NCBI RefSeq assembly: GCF_016820655.1
Contig: NZ_WSFT01000028.1
Location: 62,001-126,000, forward strand
Length of the DNA: 64,000 nucleotides
DNA from: Anaeromonas frigoriresistens
Lineage (GTDB): Bacteria; Bacillota; Clostridia; Tissierellales; SIT17
Reading direction: 5' to 3'
Below, piece by piece: positions 11,892 to 57,319 of the stretch (its first letter is position 1; the number at the start of each line of letters is the position of its first letter). A model generated the notes under the pieces. That model was not told the DNA's origin, searched no databases, and worked only from the letters and a program-made list of their open reading frames with translations. A program made the translations under genes and the position numbers.

Positions 11892-12019
11892 TTATCCACA
11901 ATTTATGCACATAATCCCCAGCGTTATCCACATATTTATCATGGGACAGGCTCTTTTGTCTATTGATTTTCCACATTATCCACAAAATTTGTATATAAAT
12001 CTGTCAACAATGTGGATAA
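11892..12019. other. DnaA-box cluster 1
   Basis: Five 9-mers fit TTATNCACA: TTATCCACA at 11892-11900, TTATGCACA at 11903-11911, TTATCCACA at 11924-11932 and 11976-11984, and its complement TGTGGATAA at 12011-12019. A one-mismatch copy (TTTTCCACA) is at 11967-11975. AT-rich DNA follows to about 12150. No dnaA, dnaN or rpmH is present, so a DnaA-titrating or regulatory cluster is more likely than oriC. Confidence 0.75.
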
Positions 12020-12192
12020 AATGTTTATAAAGCTTGTCCAGACAATTTTCGTCAATTTATACCATAATGGTTAACATAAACTTATAAAAACAAGGCATTT
12101 TACATTATTCGATTTACAAAAATATTGTTTTTTTACTTTCTTTTTCTAATAAGTGCTATGTACCTGCGAGCCTAGTCCAGGGGTCCTAAATA

Positions 12193-12304
12193 TAAGATCC
12201 TTCGCTACGTTCAGGATGACTACTCTATTGTCCCTCTTAGCGTAGTCGAAGAGTCTTGTTTTAATTTGTATGTTTTTTCAAGAACCTTAAAGACAAGATT
12301 CTTT
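12193..12304. repeat. Interspersed repeat, locus 3
   Basis: Two or three partial copies: AAGATCCTTCGCTACG with TTCAGGATGAC (reverse orientation), then CTTAGCGTAGTCGAAGAGTCTT (forward, read in two halves), then a degenerate AAGACAAGATTCTT. It lies between DnaA-box cluster 1 and the TM2 gene terminator. Confidence 0.7.
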
Positions 12305-17588: not shown

Positions 17589-17712
17589 ACTTAATCCTCT
17601 TCCATCCAGACTTTACTGTCGGTCCTGGAATTTCACCAAGTCAACCGTATTTTCATACGGGTCGCGGACTTTACCGCCGGTCGGGAATTTCACCCTGCCC
17701 TGAAGATTAACT
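17589..17712 (-). promoter_or_regulatory. FMN riboswitch (RFN element)
   Basis: The minus strand holds the conserved RFN blocks in order: CAGGGTGAAATTCCCGACCG, GCGGTAAAGTCCGCGACCC, a variable hairpin (GTATGAAAATAC), TTGACTTGGTGAAATTCC and AGGACCGACAGTAAAGTC with TGGATGGAAGAGG. This is an almost consensus aptamer. A further hairpin TTAAGTATG/CATACTTAA (17572-17592) abuts its 3' end and may belong to the antiterminator switch. Confidence 0.97.
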
Positions 17713-51038: not shown

Positions 51039-51146
51039 GTCATCCCGAGCATAGTTGAAGGATCTGACATGCTTTATGTCACCCTGAACATTGTGAAGGA
51101 TCTGACTGTACCATCGTCATCCTGAGCGTAGTCGAAGGATCTTATC
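51039..51146. repeat. Interspersed repeat, locus 12 (three tandem copies)
   Basis: Three head-to-tail forward copies: TTGTCATCCCGAGCATAG with TTGAAGGATCT, TGTCACCCTGAACATTG with TGAAGGATCT, and CGTCATCCTGAGCGTAG with TCGAAGGATCTTAT. This is the only purely tandem locus. The other part of the 50888-51194 gap is AT-rich without recognised features. Confidence 0.85.
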
Positions 51147-51194: not shown

Positions 51195-51731
51195 TTAAAA
51201 CTCTGGCTCTATTAAGCCGTAGTTTCCATCCTTCCTTCTATATACTACATTAGTCTCATTTGTATTTGCATCTTTATATACAAAGAAGTTATGACCTAAT
51301 AACTCCATCTGTAATATAGCTTCCTCTTCATCCATTGGCTTCATTGCAAATCTCTTTGTCTTTACAATGCTTGGTTCATTTGTATCTGCTGCAATATCTC
51401 TATAATCTGGAATATTCTCAAATCTTATAGTTCTACCATTATGCTTTCTTTTTTCTAGCTTTGTTTTATGTTTTCTAATTTGTCTTTCTAATATATCTAT
51501 TACTTTGTCGATAGATGTGTACATATCATTCGTATCTTCCTCTGCACGAATTATAGTACCTGAAAATGGAACATTAACCTCAATTATCTGTCTATTCTTT
51601 TCAACAGTCATTGTCACATCCACTCTAGCATCCTTATGGAAGTACTTCTCTAATCTTTCTATCTTCCTGTCTACTGCATCTCTAAGTCCTTCTGTCACCT
51701 GCATATTTTTTCCACTAATAATAATGTCCAT
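51195..51731 (-). CDS. hpf: Ribosome hibernation promoting factor, long form
   Basis: 178 residues from the ATG at 51731 with GGGAG upstream; a TTG six codons before is unlikely. The N-terminal domain (MDIIISGKNMQVTEGLRDAVDRK) is the YfiA/HPF fold that sits in the 30S decoding region. The C-terminal domain (SIVKTKRFAMKPMDEEEAILQMELLGHNFFVYKDANT) dimerises and joins 70S particles to 100S. Its leader carries a hairpin (51762-51778), and a long non-coding region with DnaA boxes lies further upstream. Confidence 0.96.
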   Translation of the reverse strand: MDIIISGKNMQVTEGLRDAVDRKIERLEKYFHKDARVDVTMTVEKNRQIIEVNVPFSGTIIRAEEDTNDMYTSIDKVIDILERQIRKHKTKLEKRKHNGRTIRFENIPDYRDIAADTNEPSIVKTKRFAMKPMDEEEAILQMELLGHNFFVYKDANTNETNVVYRRKDGNYGLIEPEF

Positions 51732-51761
51732 AAATTCAACTCCCTTCAATTTATGTGAAGT

Positions 51762-51778: not shown

Positions 51779-52068
51779 AAAAATAAATATCAACTATAAA
51801 TTAAGTTTTTCTTTAGGTTATTATCTTTATTAATACCCAATAAATATATGTCCTAACATATATTTATTATTAAATTTCTACATTAAGTCGTATTATGTCT
51901 AATACTACTAATATAAGCTAGATCCTCATTTTTAAACTATTAAAGTATCAATAGTCCTTTAAGTATATCCATTAGGTTAATATGATTCCCTAAAATTTTA
52001 CACTTAACTATATATTTTATCTATATATATTATATTTTATGCAGTCTATTGAATAATTATTTAGACAT

Positions 52069-52147
52069 TTATCCACATATTTTTTCTGTGTATATGTGGA
52101 TAAAATTATGGCATTTCTGTGGATAGTGTGTATAACTCTGTGGATTA
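52069..52147. other. DnaA-box cluster 2
   Basis: TTATCCACA at 52069-52077, TGTGGATAA at 52095-52103 and TGTGTATAA at 52127-52135 fit TTATNCACA on one strand or the other. TGTGGATAG (52118-52126) and TGTGGATTA (52139-52147) have one mismatch. The surrounding 51780-52320 is very AT-rich and non-coding. No dnaA gene is near. Confidence 0.7.
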
Positions 52148-52195
52148 GTGTAAAATAGTACAAGTTATTGTGTGGAGAAAAGTGTGGAGAAGATG

Positions 52196-52228
52196 TTAAT
52201 CTTGTTAATTCTTTATTAACAAGATTAA
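52196..52228. repeat. 13-bp inverted repeat beside DnaA-box cluster 2
   Basis: TTAATCTTGTTAA and its exact complement TTAACAAGATTAA, separated by 7 bases, about 50 bases from the last DnaA-like box. A T-rich stretch (TTTTCTAATTTTTT) follows on the plus strand, but no plus-strand gene precedes it. Confidence 0.7.
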
Positions 52229-52327
52229 TTTTCTAATTTTTTAATAAGTTATATTATAATTTATTTTAATATTCATTAAAAAATAACACTAATAATTAGT
52301 TATTTTCTATGTTATTTTTTTAAAAAA

Positions 52328-52353
52328 ATAGGGCAGGATATATCCTGCCCTAT
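52328..52353 (-). terminator. Terminator of GNAT gene / M20-YfcC operon
   Basis: A 26-bp perfect palindrome, ATAGGGCAGGATA and its complement, followed by seven T residues on the minus strand. Confidence 0.9.
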
Positions 52354-52362
52354 CATCCATAT

Positions 52363-52881
52363 TTAACATGGTTCATATTCAGTTTCTAAAATAGACATTA
52401 CTATCATGGATCTATATCCATTTTGCCCTTTTCTTGACTCCCTTAGGACTCCTTCTATTCTAAACTTTTTAGATAAATATAAGTTCAAAGCTTTATAGTT
52501 ATCATCATATACATCTAGCCATAACCTATGGCATTTTTCTTCTTCAAAGGCTAATCTCTTTATTAATTTAATACTTTCTCGACCGTAGCCCCTACCTTTT
52601 TCTTTTATTGCTATTCTTCTAAACTCTATAGATCCATGCGTATCACCTATACCAGATAATAAAACATAACCTATAATTGAATCTCTCTCCTTATCCCTTA
52701 TAGTAACATGAAGTTCATTGGGATTGTTTATAGCTTCAATATGTCTTTCTTTAGGCCAGGAAAAGATAAAGTTGCTATTTTCTTTCTGACTTTCAATAGA
52801 TATAATTTCATCTACATCTTTAACTTCAGTTTTTAAAAATATTATTTTATCTGATTCTATTAGTTTATTAATTGTTACCAC
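52363..52881 (-). CDS. GNAT family N-acetyltransferase (RimJ/RimL-like)
   Basis: 172 residues. The acetyl-CoA-binding loop is RRIAIKEKGRGYGRESIKLI, and the later strand HRLWLDVYDDNYKALNLYLSKKFRIEGVLRES matches the RimJ/SpeG-like group. The substrate is unknown. The gene begins 6 bases before the end of the YfcC carrier gene upstream (gap 6), so it is the last gene of that operon and may modify the imported compound. A strong terminator follows. Confidence 0.88.
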   Translation of the reverse strand: MVTINKLIESDKIIFLKTEVKDVDEIISIESQKENSNFIFSWPKERHIEAINNPNELHVTIRDKERDSIIGYVLLSGIGDTHGSIEFRRIAIKEKGRGYGRESIKLIKRLAFEEEKCHRLWLDVYDDNYKALNLYLSKKFRIEGVLRESRKGQNGYRSMIVMSILETEYEPC

Positions 52882-52887
52882 TCCTTT

Positions 52888-54276
52888 TTAGAAAGGTCCA
52901 TAATTAATTATAACAGATAGAGCCACAAATGCTGCACCTAATATAGTCCAAATAAGGAATAAAGGCCACATCCATTTTGCCCACTTTTCCCAAGAGATTC
53001 CACCTATAGCTATTGCAGCCATGAAGTACCCTGAAGTAGGAGATATTACATTTGAGAATCCATCTCCAAATTGGAAAGCTAATACAGCTGTTTGTCTAGT
53101 TATACCTACAACATCTGCCATTGGTGCCATTATAGGCATAGATACTGCTGCTTGACCACTTCCAGATGGAACAAATAGATTTGTTAAACTCTGTACTACA
53201 AACATTCCAATACCACTTATTGTAGGAGGAAGCCCTTGAACAACACTAGCCATACCATTGATTATTGTGTCTAATATTCTTCCATCTTCTAACACTACCA
53301 TGATAGATGTAGCTAGACCAATAACCAAAGCACCATATACTAGTTCCTGAGCACCTTTTACAAATTCTTCAGCTATTCTATTTACTCCTAATCCTCCAGC
53401 AATACCAGCTAAAAGACCGATAATTAAGAAGGTTGCCGTAAGCTCAGTTATATAGAATCCTAATTGTACTACGCCAAAAGCTAATATTGCCATTCCTATT
53501 ACTAATATAGCTACAACTATTTTATGTCTTGTAGTAAAATCAGGTAAATTAGCTAAATCTAAATTCTCATGCTTTATCTTATCTTTTTCATAAGTAGGAC
53601 TTATGGTTGGATCCTTCTGTACTTTACCTGCATATCTATATACATATATAATTGTAACTCCTAATATAGTCACATACACTATTAGTCTAAACCATATTCC
53701 TGAGAATAATGGTAACCCAGCTATACCTTGAGCTATACCTATAGTAAAGGGGTTTAAAAATGCTCCTGCAAATCCTGCCCCAGCCCCTAATAATACCATG
53801 GCTGTACCAGTAAGGGTATCAAATCCTAAAGCTAAAGAAAGGGCAATGACAATTGGATAGAAGGGTAGCATCTCTTCTGCTGATCCCAACATAGCTCCTG
53901 CTAAAGAGAATATAAACATAATAACAGGGATAACTAATTTTTCTTTTCCTTTCATTAATACGACTGTTTTACCTATACCAGCATCTATAGCACCGGTAGC
54001 TTGAAGTATTCCAAATGAACCTCCAATCATAAGTACAAAGAAAATAATATATCCTGCTTTTTCCATTCCCTTAGGTATAGCTTTAAAAAGACCAAAAGGA
54101 GAAACAGGCTCATTCTCTACTTCATGAAAACTATTTGGAACAACAAATATTCTACCGGTATCAGCATCCTCTGCCCTATCGAATTCTCCAGCAGGCACTA
54201 CATATGTTAAAACTGTAGCTAAAATTATAATAAAAAATAATAATGCATAAGTATGGGGTAACCTGATTCTTTTCAT
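52888..54276 (-). CDS. YfcC family permease, copy 1
   Basis: 462 residues with about eleven to thirteen membrane segments. PHTYALLFFIIILATVLTYVVPAGEFDR is the family start; GSAEEMLPFYPIVIALSLALGFD, GAGFAGAFLNPFTIGIAQGIAGLPLFSG, VPSGSGQAAVSMPIMAPMADV and FQFGDGFSNVISPTSGYFMAAIAIGGISWEKW are the conserved regions. YfcC proteins are IT-superfamily carriers thought to move amino acid or peptide derivatives or dicarboxylates; the substrate here is unknown. It follows an M20 peptidase gene by 11 bases. Confidence 0.9.
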   Translation of the reverse strand: MKRIRLPHTYALLFFIIILATVLTYVVPAGEFDRAEDADTGRIFVVPNSFHEVENEPVSPFGLFKAIPKGMEKAGYIIFFVLMIGGSFGILQATGAIDAGIGKTVVLMKGKEKLVIPVIMFIFSLAGAMLGSAEEMLPFYPIVIALSLALGFDTLTGTAMVLLGAGAGFAGAFLNPFTIGIAQGIAGLPLFSGIWFRLIVYVTILGVTIIYVYRYAGKVQKDPTISPTYEKDKIKHENLDLANLPDFTTRHKIVVAILVIGMAILAFGVVQLGFYITELTATFLIIGLLAGIAGGLGVNRIAEEFVKGAQELVYGALVIGLATSIMVVLEDGRILDTIINGMASVVQGLPPTISGIGMFVVQSLTNLFVPSGSGQAAVSMPIMAPMADVVGITRQTAVLAFQFGDGFSNVISPTSGYFMAAIAIGGISWEKWAKWMWPLFLIWTILGAAFVALSVIINYGPF

Positions 54277-54287
54277 AAAAATTCCTC

Positions 54288-55463
54288 CTATTTACAAATT
54301 TTTTCTATCAAATCAAAATATATTTCTGCTGCTTGATATATTTCTTCTGTATCACAAAACTCATCATTGGCATGGGCTTGGTTAATGTTTCCAGGCCCTA
54401 ATATAATAGCTTCAGTATCACCATTATTACTTAATAGAGCTGCATCACTCCAAGCTGGAAAAGCTACAGGTTCCTTCTTATCTCCAGTAAATTTCTCTGT
54501 AGATTCTAGAGCTTCTTTTACTAACCTATGGTCCCTATCAATACTGTGGGGGGTGTTTATCATTGAAGCAGTAAATTCTCTCAATGCTCTTATCTCATAC
54601 TTCCCACCAATTTTATCCACTGCCCTTTTAGCTAACTCTTCTAATTCTCCATGTACTGATTCTAATGTTTCATTAGGTAACCATCTTCTATCAATTCTTA
54701 CACTACATTTATCTGGAATAATATTTGGATCATCACCACCTCTTATAACTCCTACATTTACAGTACCATGACCTAATAAATCAAATGTCCTATTTTCTAA
54801 TTTTTCTGAAAACTCTTCATAAACTAGTCTATTAAATTCAGAGGCAGCATAAATAGCATTTATTCCTTCCTTAGGTCTACTACCATGAGAAGATCTTCCT
54901 TTAAATGTTATCTCTATCCACTCCATACCTTTATGGGCTATAGATATATTTAGCTCTGTTGGCTCTCCTATTACTGCCATTTTTGGTATAATACCTTTCT
55001 TAATTAGTCTTTCTGTCCCTTTAGAACTTTCCTCTTCATCTATAACTCCTGCAAACATTACGGTTTTCTTTAAAGAAGCATTAGATCTCTTCATAGCTAT
55101 AAGAGCTGAAATCATTGCTGCTATTCCGCCCTTCATATCAGCACTTCCTCTGCCATAAAGCTTCCCATCTTTGATGAAAGGTTCAAAGGCTTCATAGTCC
55201 ATATTAAATCCTGGTATTGTATCTAAATGACCATTAAACATCAACTCTATCTCATCATCTTCCCCCTGGATTTTCCCATAAACATTTGGTCTATTTTCTT
55301 CGATGATATCCACATCATTTTCAATCTTTTCCTTTTTCAATAGCTCTTGAATATACTGAGCTACCTTTGATTCTTTAACTTCAATATCCTTATGACCTTC
55401 AATAGATACTAAATCCTTAGTAATTTGTATTACTTCTTCCTTAGTTATAAAATCTTTTAACAT
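54288..55463 (-). CDS. M20 family peptidase/deacylase (ArgE/DapE-like)
   Basis: 391 residues from the ATG at 55463, which has AGGAGGGG upstream; a longer frame to 55544 lacks a site. ELMFNGHLDTIPG gives the first metal ligand with its neighbouring Asp, LYGRGSADMKGGIAAMISAL the bridging Asp, and FAGVIDEEESSKGTERLI the catalytic Glu pair. FKGRSSHGSRPKEGINAI belongs to the dimerisation domain. The enzyme removes acyl groups or splits dipeptides; the exact substrate is unknown. It is probably co-expressed with the downstream carrier. Confidence 0.9.
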   Translation of the reverse strand: MLKDFITKEEVIQITKDLVSIEGHKDIEVKESKVAQYIQELLKKEKIENDVDIIEENRPNVYGKIQGEDDEIELMFNGHLDTIPGFNMDYEAFEPFIKDGKLYGRGSADMKGGIAAMISALIAMKRSNASLKKTVMFAGVIDEEESSKGTERLIKKGIIPKMAVIGEPTELNISIAHKGMEWIEITFKGRSSHGSRPKEGINAIYAASEFNRLVYEEFSEKLENRTFDLLGHGTVNVGVIRGGDDPNIIPDKCSVRIDRRWLPNETLESVHGELEELAKRAVDKIGGKYEIRALREFTASMINTPHSIDRDHRLVKEALESTEKFTGDKKEPVAFPAWSDAALLSNNGDTEAIILGPGNINQAHANDEFCDTEEIYQAAEIYFDLIEKICK

Positions 55464-55583
55464 AACTTCCCCTCCTGTTTCGTTTACATGTTTATACTTG
55501 TCTACGCGATAGGTAAAAATATACCTACCTAGTTTTATTTTCACACATCCCTCCTTGTTTTGTTTATAAGTTTAAGTATATCA

Positions 55584-55614
55584 ACATATATATTATATGT
55601 ATGCAGCACATACA
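55584..55614. promoter_or_regulatory. Candidate ArsR operator
   Basis: Two overlapping inverted repeats: ACATATA-TAT-TATATGT (55584-55600) and TGTATG-CAGCA-CATACA (55598-55614), between the M20 gene and the ArsR gene. Imperfect palindromes of this size are typical ArsR sites; assignment is inferred. Confidence 0.4.
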
Positions 55615-55621
55615 CAAAATA

Positions 55622-55906
55622 TTAGTAACTAATGAAGCCTAAAATTGATTGGGCTAAGGATGTAAGAACATAATTATTTACTGAATAGAAGGTTTCTTTA
55701 CCTTCTTTCCTGGCCTCTACTATTCTTGCTCTTCTCATTATCTGAAGATGATGAGAAATGGTAGGTCTCGAAACTCTAGAGTTCTGAGCAATCTCATTTA
55801 CATTCATTTCTTTATTTCCTAACAGTTTTAGTATATCTAGTCTAGTCTCATCTGCTAAAGCTTTTAATATATCAACATCTATTTCATTTTTATTAAATCC
55901 TAACAT
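55622..55906 (-). CDS. ArsR family transcriptional regulator
   Basis: 94 residues. Winged helix: LKALADETRLDILKLLGNKEMNVNEIAQNSRVSRPTISHHLQIMRRARIVEARKEGKETFYSV. There are no cysteines and no metal-site histidine cluster, so this is not a classic arsenic or zinc sensor. It lies between two YfcC carrier genes and probably controls the M20/YfcC operon downstream and perhaps the other carrier. Its ATG has no strong AGGAGG; GGGTAAAAT precedes it. Confidence 0.9.
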   Translation of the reverse strand: MLGFNKNEIDVDILKALADETRLDILKLLGNKEMNVNEIAQNSRVSRPTISHHLQIMRRARIVEARKEGKETFYSVNNYVLTSLAQSILGFISY

Positions 55907-55942
55907 ATTTTACCCCTACTATCTTTTTTATAAAAATATTTT

Positions 55943-57319
55943 TTAAAAAGGTCCATATCCTATTATACTAGAAATTACCAAAAGGATACAACCTTCTATG
56001 ACCCAAATGATAAATAAAGGCATCATCCATTTAGTCCATTTCCTCCAGGATATACCTCCAATGGCTAAGGCAGCCATAAAATATCCAGAGGTAGGGGATA
56101 AGACGTTAGTAAATCCATCACCAAATTGAAAAGCTAATACTGCTGTTTGTCTTGAAACTCCAGAAAAATCAGCTAATGTTTTCATTATTGGCATAGTCAC
56201 TGCTGCTTGTCCACTTCCCGATGTAACAAAAAGATTTATTAATGTTTGACTTATAAACATTCCAATTGATCCCATTATTGGTCCTACTCCACTTATTACT
56301 TTAGATAAGGCATATATCACAGTATCCATTATCTGACCATATTCCATCACTACCATCACTGATTTAGCAAGACCTATTATCAAGGCTCCATATACTTGAT
56401 TAGAAGCCCCTTTTATAAATTCTGATACAATTCTTCCAGAATTAAATCCTCCTACTAATCCAGAAATTATACCCATCATCAAAAAAGTAGTAGATATCTC
56501 TGTTATATAAAAATTATATTTAATAACACCAACTAAAAGGAATATAAAGAATAACAGTATAACTATAGTTACTCTTACATGCTTTGAGTTTAATGATGAT
56601 AAGTTATCAAAATTAAATTCTTCTTCAAATTCATAATTTTCATCGGAGTCTATTTTTTCTGATTTTACTTTGTTTGCATATCTATATACAAAAATTATAG
56701 AAGTAGATACAAATACTATATATGCGATGATTCTAAAATACATCCCTGAAAAAAGAGGTAATTGGGATATGTTTTGAGCAATTCCAGTGGTAAAAGGATT
56801 TAAAAAACCTGCAACAAATCCTGATCCAGTGCCTAAAAGGACCATTGCAACTCCTGTGAGTCTATCAAACCCTAATGCTAAGGATAAACTAATAAACATA
56901 GGATAAAATGGTAATGCCTCTTCTGCAGTACCGAAGACTGCTCCTGCCAAAGAGAATATAATCATAACTAATGGAATGATTTTCTTCTCTTTTCCACCAT
57001 ATCTTACTACTATATTTTCTATTATCCTATTAATAGTTCCTGTGGATTGGATAATACCAAAACTTCCACCAGCAATTAAAACAAATATTATTATATTTCC
57101 TGCCTGCATCATACCCTCTGGAATAGATTCAAATATTTTAAATACAGAAAGATAAGACTTAGGCATTTGCTCATAACTATCTGGTACAACATAGCTAATA
57201 CCAGTTTCACTATCTATGTATCTATCAAAACTTCCTGAAGGGATTATATAAGACATTATACCTATCAGTATAATTATAAGGAATAACAATACATATGTAT
57301 TTGGAATTCTTTTACTCAT
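55943..57319 (-). CDS. YfcC family permease, copy 2
   Basis: 458 residues, a clear paralogue of the carrier at 52888-54276: PNTYVLLFLIIILIGIMSYIIPSGSFDR, GTAEEALPFYPMFISLSLALGFD, VTSGSGQAAVTMPIMKTLADF and FQFGDGFTNVLSPTSGYFMAALAIGGISWRKW align throughout. Similar membrane topology. The substrate is unknown. It is 36 bases upstream of the ArsR gene, so they are likely co-transcribed. GGAGG precedes the ATG. Confidence 0.9.
   Translation of the reverse strand: MSKRIPNTYVLLFLIIILIGIMSYIIPSGSFDRYIDSETGISYVVPDSYEQMPKSYLSVFKIFESIPEGMMQAGNIIIFVLIAGGSFGIIQSTGTINRIIENIVVRYGGKEKKIIPLVMIIFSLAGAVFGTAEEALPFYPMFISLSLALGFDRLTGVAMVLLGTGSGFVAGFLNPFTTGIAQNISQLPLFSGMYFRIIAYIVFVSTSIIFVYRYANKVKSEKIDSDENYEFEEEFNFDNLSSLNSKHVRVTIVILLFFIFLLVGVIKYNFYITEISTTFLMMGIISGLVGGFNSGRIVSEFIKGASNQVYGALIIGLAKSVMVVMEYGQIMDTVIYALSKVISGVGPIMGSIGMFISQTLINLFVTSGSGQAAVTMPIMKTLADFSGVSRQTAVLAFQFGDGFTNVLSPTSGYFMAALAIGGISWRKWTKWMMPLFIIWVIEGCILLVISSIIGYGPF

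Follow-up and report, generated by a model that had tools for sequence, protein, structure and literature searches.

Seven DnaA boxes are found within 123 bases (52069-52191) of the 613-base intergenic gap between a GNAT acetyltransferase gene and hpf, the gene for ribosome hibernation promoting factor, in the 64,000 nucleotides of Anaeromonas frigoriresistens DNA analysed here (the window). Directly supported are the boxes themselves, their near-fixed spacing, the conservation of the array at this site, a related and conserved cluster at tsaD, and the lack of origin features. The array is probably a DnaA-box cluster outside oriC, which would bind DnaA cooperatively and set the pool of free or ATP-bound DnaA. 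An unrecognised replication-control site had been suggested in a preliminary description of the sequence; a conserved DnaA-box array outside oriC is what stands of this suggestion, and the unwinding element attached to it is not supported.

Against the consensus TTATCCACA, two of the boxes are exact and five have one mismatch; six lie on the minus strand and one on the plus strand. Read in the direction of hpf, the spacing is a-12-b-32-c-12-d-9-e-23-f-26-g, with g reversed. Boxes a (52183-52191, minus) and b (52171-52179, minus) are both TTCTCCACA, with one mismatch; a is poorly kept among relatives, and b lies 32 bases before c. Box c (52139-52147, minus, TAATCCACA) opens a three-box core and is followed after a 3-base gap, the same as that between a and b, by box d (52127-52135, minus, TTATACACA), which box e (52118-52126, minus, CTATCCACA) abuts directly. 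Box f (52095-52103, minus), an exact TTATCCACA, lies 23 bases past e, and boxes c to f form part of alignment A1. Box g (52069-52077, plus), also exact, faces the other boxes 26 bases past f. The three consensus and two one-mismatch boxes in 79 bases of the preliminary description match the looser consensus TTATNCACA; under the stricter TTATCCACA the same five boxes are two exact and three one-mismatch, and the one-mismatch TTCTCCACA boxes at 52171 and 52183, which had been overlooked, bring the total to seven. As had been described, the orientation is mostly opposite to that of cluster 1, the other box cluster in the window (five plus, one minus).

The intergenic region has a GC content of only 22%, and an AT-rich word could cluster by chance or through base composition alone. 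However, shuffles of the 613-base gap (n = 2000) give a maximum of three boxes per 130 bases as compared with the seven observed, and none reaches even four; shuffles of the whole window (n = 200) also give at most three. In addition, the spacing recurs throughout the order, and a reversed control has no match among the rows listed for 398 genomes. The hpf-side box cluster is real, and chance can practically be discounted. Exact DnaA boxes were also listed across the whole genome, and other box groups are present on C1 (in or beside a pyr-type coding sequence), C42 (near an amidase gene) and C49.

The array does not have the setting of an origin. The dnaA gene is on contig C4, among jag, yidC, rnpA, dnaN, recF and gyrB, and the window is on contig C27. 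GC skew in 2-kb bins is negative throughout the window except at 10-12 kb, a bin with a gene on the other strand, and shows no switch. The preliminary description had called for a check on the GC-skew minimum; the window is without a skew switch, and oriC is on another contig beside dnaA. The array lies neither beside dnaA or dnaN nor at a skew switch, and with dnaA on contig C4 and no skew change it is ruled out as oriC. The bipartite oriC of Clostridia and Bacilli (rnpA-rpmH-dnaA-dnaN) has box clusters near AT-rich DNA, as the array does, but the array is without a dnaA or dnaN neighbour or skew switch and is on another contig.

Next to the array is an inverted repeat (52196-52228) with arms at 52196-52209 and 52215-52228 and a 5-base loop. 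Its arms, described earlier as a perfect 13 bp, are in fact perfect over 14 bases. A perfect 13-base arm with a loop of up to 10 bases occurs in 0.3% of 1000 shuffles of the intergenic sequence. Perfect inverted repeats are nevertheless not rare in this genome, because the real window has ten such places (27 nested hits), of which three are in the hpf gap and one is the terminator of the next gene. In the three genus-mates (L015-L017) the half sites are wider apart and the repeat is imperfect, and in the rest of the order this stretch differs. The inverted repeat is probably local, judging from these sequences, and it is ruled out as a conserved partner site since it is not kept among the genus-mates. 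A Rex operator, which we take to be TTGTTAA-N4-TTAACAA, was also rejected: half sites are present but are 7 bases apart, and by eye wider still in the genus-mates.

The AT-rich stretch and the repeat had been likened to an unwinding element. This is not supported, with the repeat imperfect in L015-L017, no skew switch and no dnaA or dnaN neighbour. Relatives show no conserved perfect repeat adjoining the array, and their hpf-side stretches are partly conserved in sequence. An ectopic or secondary origin carrying its own unwinding element would draw on the combination of box cluster, AT-rich flank and inverted repeat, but dnaA sits with the usual oriC genes on contig C4, the skew does not change at the array, and both repeat and flank vary among relatives. 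Such an origin is therefore very improbable.

The hpf gene (51195-51731, minus) has S30AE domains; its open reading frame opens at 51749, and the start at 51731 was chosen by trimming the listed frame to the first ATG. The upstream neighbour of the array, the GNAT acetyltransferase gene (52363-52881, minus), ends in an intrinsic terminator (52327-52354, minus) and has relatives only in L015 (= L044) among the compared loci. Many relatives have a FlgN-like gene directly upstream of the array. In the window, two YfcC-like transporter genes (a name presumed from the sequence), a peptidase gene and the GNAT gene stand between the FlgN-like gene and the array (52888-57319). FlgN-like, zf_Tbcl, solute-binding protein, ribonuclease III domain, GNAT and S30AE were assigned by Pfam; comF, exporter, secA, prfB, tsaD, ABC-F, sigH, xth, mrnC, dnaN, recF and gyrB are names presumed from the sequences.

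Conservation was assayed at hpf in 58 of 60 related genomes in which the gene was located, and in 80 named loci. A scan with the fixed spacing is circular because it is scored on that spacing, and therefore an unanchored histogram of spacings was made. Among the 58 relatives, the same-strand spacing 21 is present in 38, spacings 23 and 44 in 31, 9 and 12 in 28, and 32 in 26, some of these being sums of others; the next commonest, 53 (15 of 58), is itself such a sum. The fixed-spacing fit passes upstream of hpf in 42 loci, 38 of them distinct and 36 from the 58 relatives. Box b, with at least 8 of 9 matches and 30-33 bases before c, is present in 29 of the 38 distinct loci. The facing box g is less well kept (21 of 38, at least 8 of 9 matches, 25-27 bases past f). 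The genes upstream of the array vary (FlgN-like, comF, GNAT or exporter) and the array stays. It should be noted that the compared genomes are related and hence not independent.

A sequence model, R1, was built from 35 loci. It gives a co-directional match no more than 1.5 kb from hpf in 41 of the 58 relatives, 33 of them strong (12 families) and 8 weak (three more families); all 33 strong matches are training loci and are found by construction. At E <= 1e-13 there are 34 matches, and the one outside the training set, in genome G014 (contig C180, E 2.2e-19), is independent. Its array lies beside fliS and a FlgN-like gene, on a contig that ends before any hpf. The array is absent upstream of hpf in 17 of the 58 relatives (hpf families f3, f4 and f19, and two members of f17). 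Six of the 80 named loci carry it. For the other 74 (Clostridium, one Tissierellia MAG, Bacilli, Mollicutes and others), the 900 bases upstream contain no more than two near-boxes; the upstream sequence is shorter in some. Thus the array is dispensable. Besides the array, family f15 (L144, L145 and L147) displays a second tight group of boxes at -136 to -114 before hpf, with the 12-then-9 spacing in L144 and L145.

In a search of the class with R1, 227 of 391 genomes pass E 0.001, and the loci read are the 30 returned and four further stretches. Weak class-level matches may be other DnaA clusters; one (G302) is about 3.4 kb beyond gyrB, near dnaA. Among the 30 loci are that of the window and one from the same order (G007), which leaves 28 more. 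With one mismatch allowed per box, 20 of the 29 loci besides the window show the c-d-e core (12 then 9), and the other nine miss one core box at that level and retain other spacings. In 10 of the 29, an hpf gene lies no more than about 1.5 kb away. Longer stretches were read for 20 class genomes, of which 16 belong to the 29. The order zf_Tbcl, array, three-gene ABC transporter, hpf is found in six loci (L188, L190, L191, L193, L199 and L200), three of which have comF or fliS-FlgN further up, and in L202 hpf follows zf_Tbcl and the array directly. Family f40 has the array between sigH-zf_Tbcl and an ABC transporter; in L196 and L201 the transporter follows the array and roughly 7 kb of sequence beyond is without hpf, and in L186 and L189 the contigs run out. 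Family f44 (L165, L170, L171 and L180) has an array of related spacing not at hpf but between xth and mrnC, upstream of sigH. For the remaining class genomes, either the stretch or the contig is too short for hpf to be assessed, or the core is undetected.

The three-box core pattern is found in 188 of the 398 phylum genomes, and its reversed control in none among the rows listed. Of the 30 phylum loci returned, 16 are upstream of hpf (the window included), 11 are at tsaD and/or ABC-F, and three are elsewhere (L240, L248 and L250); these proportions are not those of a random sample, because the search tool chose the loci. The box layout of L240 is the same as that of L238 and L239 and a transposase-like gene lies alongside, so that L240 is possibly an ABC-F site that has been disturbed.

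Cluster 1 of the window (11892-12019, plus) has six boxes, four exact and two with one mismatch, between the convergent genes ABC-F and tsaD. It is without the 12-then-9 core, and the core pattern matches this genome once, at hpf. At least four boxes are found within 900 bases past tsaD in 29 of the 30 tsaD loci read, and none in L228. The spacings at these loci are partly recurrent (9, 42-43, 12 or 21, 11), and the window's set (11, 21, 43, 9, 35) is found in full in the genus-mate L207. The tsaD cluster is flanked on both sides by gene 3′ ends, which makes a promoter role for either gene unlikely. We take tsaD to correspond to gcp, and ABC-F to ydiF, of Bacillus subtilis. The hpf core pattern is also present at the 11 tsaD/ABC-F loci of the phylum sample, and cluster 1 has the same convergent gene pair as the B. 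subtilis site; it is without the core spacing at hpf, and its likeness to gcp/ydiF was drawn from the gene pair. The B. subtilis region described as "downstream of gcp; downstream of ydiF" is reported to be one of eight strong DnaA regions, also in vivo, and its DNA to be recovered 16-fold better by ATP-DnaA than by ADP-DnaA in vitro (PMC4447404).

Of the 41 genomes with an hpf match, tsaD shares the contig in 29 and lies on a different one in 12. The distance between hpf and tsaD is 13.7-50.3 kb in 28 of the 29 and 1.65 Mb in G043. For 23 genomes a tsaD-side R1 match is listed: in 21 of them the match faces the hpf array, and the other two have matches on both strands. The paired arrangement proposed from one genome is thus kept, with 28 of 29 same-contig relatives within 14-50 kb, although the pairing may be synteny rather than function because gene order is kept in the order. 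What was a guess from a single genome becomes two predicted, widely conserved DnaA sites.

The geometry could serve another protein with a DnaA-box-like word, or DnaA with a partner in conserved spacers. Some spacer bases are indeed kept, e.g., a CACAAAACA-N2-TGTTTTGTG dyad that adjoins the array in several loci of the class. However, the words closely match the DnaA consensus, and the B. subtilis counterpart of the tsaD site is a proven DnaA region; this reading is improbable. Dyads of the CACAAAACA-N2-TGTTTTGTG type lie past the three-box core in L161, L173, L175, L176, L178 and L183, and none is seen in the alignment of the order.

DnaA may also regulate transcription of hpf or of the operon that follows, with the array tying ribosome hibernation to the state of replication. 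The R1 match is upstream of hpf and points toward it in 41 of the 58 relatives while the upstream neighbours vary, and the steady association with hpf within the order fits as well. A promoter-like word, GGGTAT (51833-51838, minus), lies between array and start codon; GGGTA[TA] is found 57-200 bases before hpf in 30 of the 38 loci, with 1.2 expected from mononucleotide shuffles, and in seven loci a GTTTA word is present 12-16 bases before it. The pair resembles what we take to be a sigma-B-type promoter, with GGGTAT as a sigma-B-like -10. B. subtilis DnaA is reported to activate or repress genes that adjoin several clusters (PMC4447404). However, the distance from the array end to hpf ranges from about 0.1 to 1.1 kb, G044 has a 150-codon open reading frame between the two, other families insert an entire ABC transporter operon, and the tsaD cluster sits between two 3′ ends. 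Thus the variable distance, the inserted operons and the related site between gene ends disfavour a promoter role alone. Regulation of hpf is a credible but less probable reading; control of the DnaA pool is favoured over it, and both can hold.

For control of the DnaA pool, several DnaA molecules would assemble cooperatively on the ordered array. Most likely the array would, once copied by the fork, either draw DnaA, mainly the ATP form, from oriC or change the nucleotide state of DnaA. Either step would help to time the next initiation. Binding of DnaA to the array, with an effect on initiation, is expected from established DnaA biology. Which of the two steps operates, plain titration or a change in the state of DnaA that depends on geometry, is weakly indicated. 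Simple titration depends on the number of boxes and not on their spacing. Plain titration is disfavoured because it leaves the kept spacing unexplained, and a spacing kept across families despite changing neighbours suggests a defined complex. In E. coli, DnaA in vivo is reported to prefer box pairs 2-3 bases apart, with one added base abolishing binding (PMC11317965); in the array, the a-b and c-d gaps are 3 bases, with an abutting box in addition.

The distance between array and dnaA is 5.0-21.0% of the genome in all 11 single-contig genomes tabulated, and the array points with the fork. Five of these genomes belong to the order and have the array at hpf; the other six are class members (E <= 1.5e-9), two of which (G191 and G253) have it at mrnC and not at hpf. 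Left out were G232 (about 705 kb from dnaA) and G435 (about 628 kb, in the opposite orientation), both with unread neighbourhoods, further single-contig genomes with weaker or non-hpf matches (G023, G058, G084, G100, G121, G129, G147, G202, G206, G221, G245, G351, G369 and G383), and those of two or three contigs (G006, G044, G051 and G416). The origin-side position fits an early-duplicated site, but proximity to the origin may be a consequence of the secA neighbourhood or have other reasons. Titration near the origin has recently been supported in E. coli (PMC12371093).

DnaA-box clusters outside oriC are a known kind of element, and the tsaD-side site is known in B. subtilis. A literature search (titles, mainly open literature) gave no report of the hpf-side site, its near-fixed geometry or its spread. 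The array resembles the B. subtilis clusters (DBCs) in being an intergenic many-box cluster away from oriC: its seven boxes in 123 bases are intergenic, with dnaA on another contig. The gene neighbourhood of a known DBC (gcp/ydiF) is found at cluster 1 and not at the hpf array, and hpf (yvyD) does not appear in the eight-region table of one report (PMC4447404). Removal of six clusters in B. subtilis is reported to cause early initiation (PMC5295017, PMC13220808).

The array also resembles E. coli datA, DARS1 and DARS2, short DnaA-box loci outside oriC with a defined box arrangement, and could possibly work similarly. However, datA acts with IHF, which a 2026 review describes as missing from B. 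subtilis along with datA and DARS; the review also calls it unknown whether any regulators keep ADP- and ATP-DnaA in balance there (PMC13220808). The likeness drawn here is one of position and box layout. A Bacillota counterpart of datA/DARS, with near-invariant spacing, a specific assembly that would alter the nucleotide state of DnaA, a partner at tsaD, and an hpf copy that may couple hibernation to replication, is a speculative and rather unlikely reading. If true, it would give these bacteria a control of the nucleotide cycle that they are believed to lack. The array is a small, cloneable element for testing how the DnaA cycle is governed in bacteria without Hda, SeqA, IHF, datA and DARS.

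An RNA element at the array was considered and rejected, since the only Rfam match in the window at the gathering threshold is an FMN riboswitch elsewhere (RF00050, 125 bits, 17590-17711, minus). Short dispersed repeats of the catcctgagcgtagtcgaaggatc type are present near both DnaA clusters, at 51040-51145 and 12190-12255.
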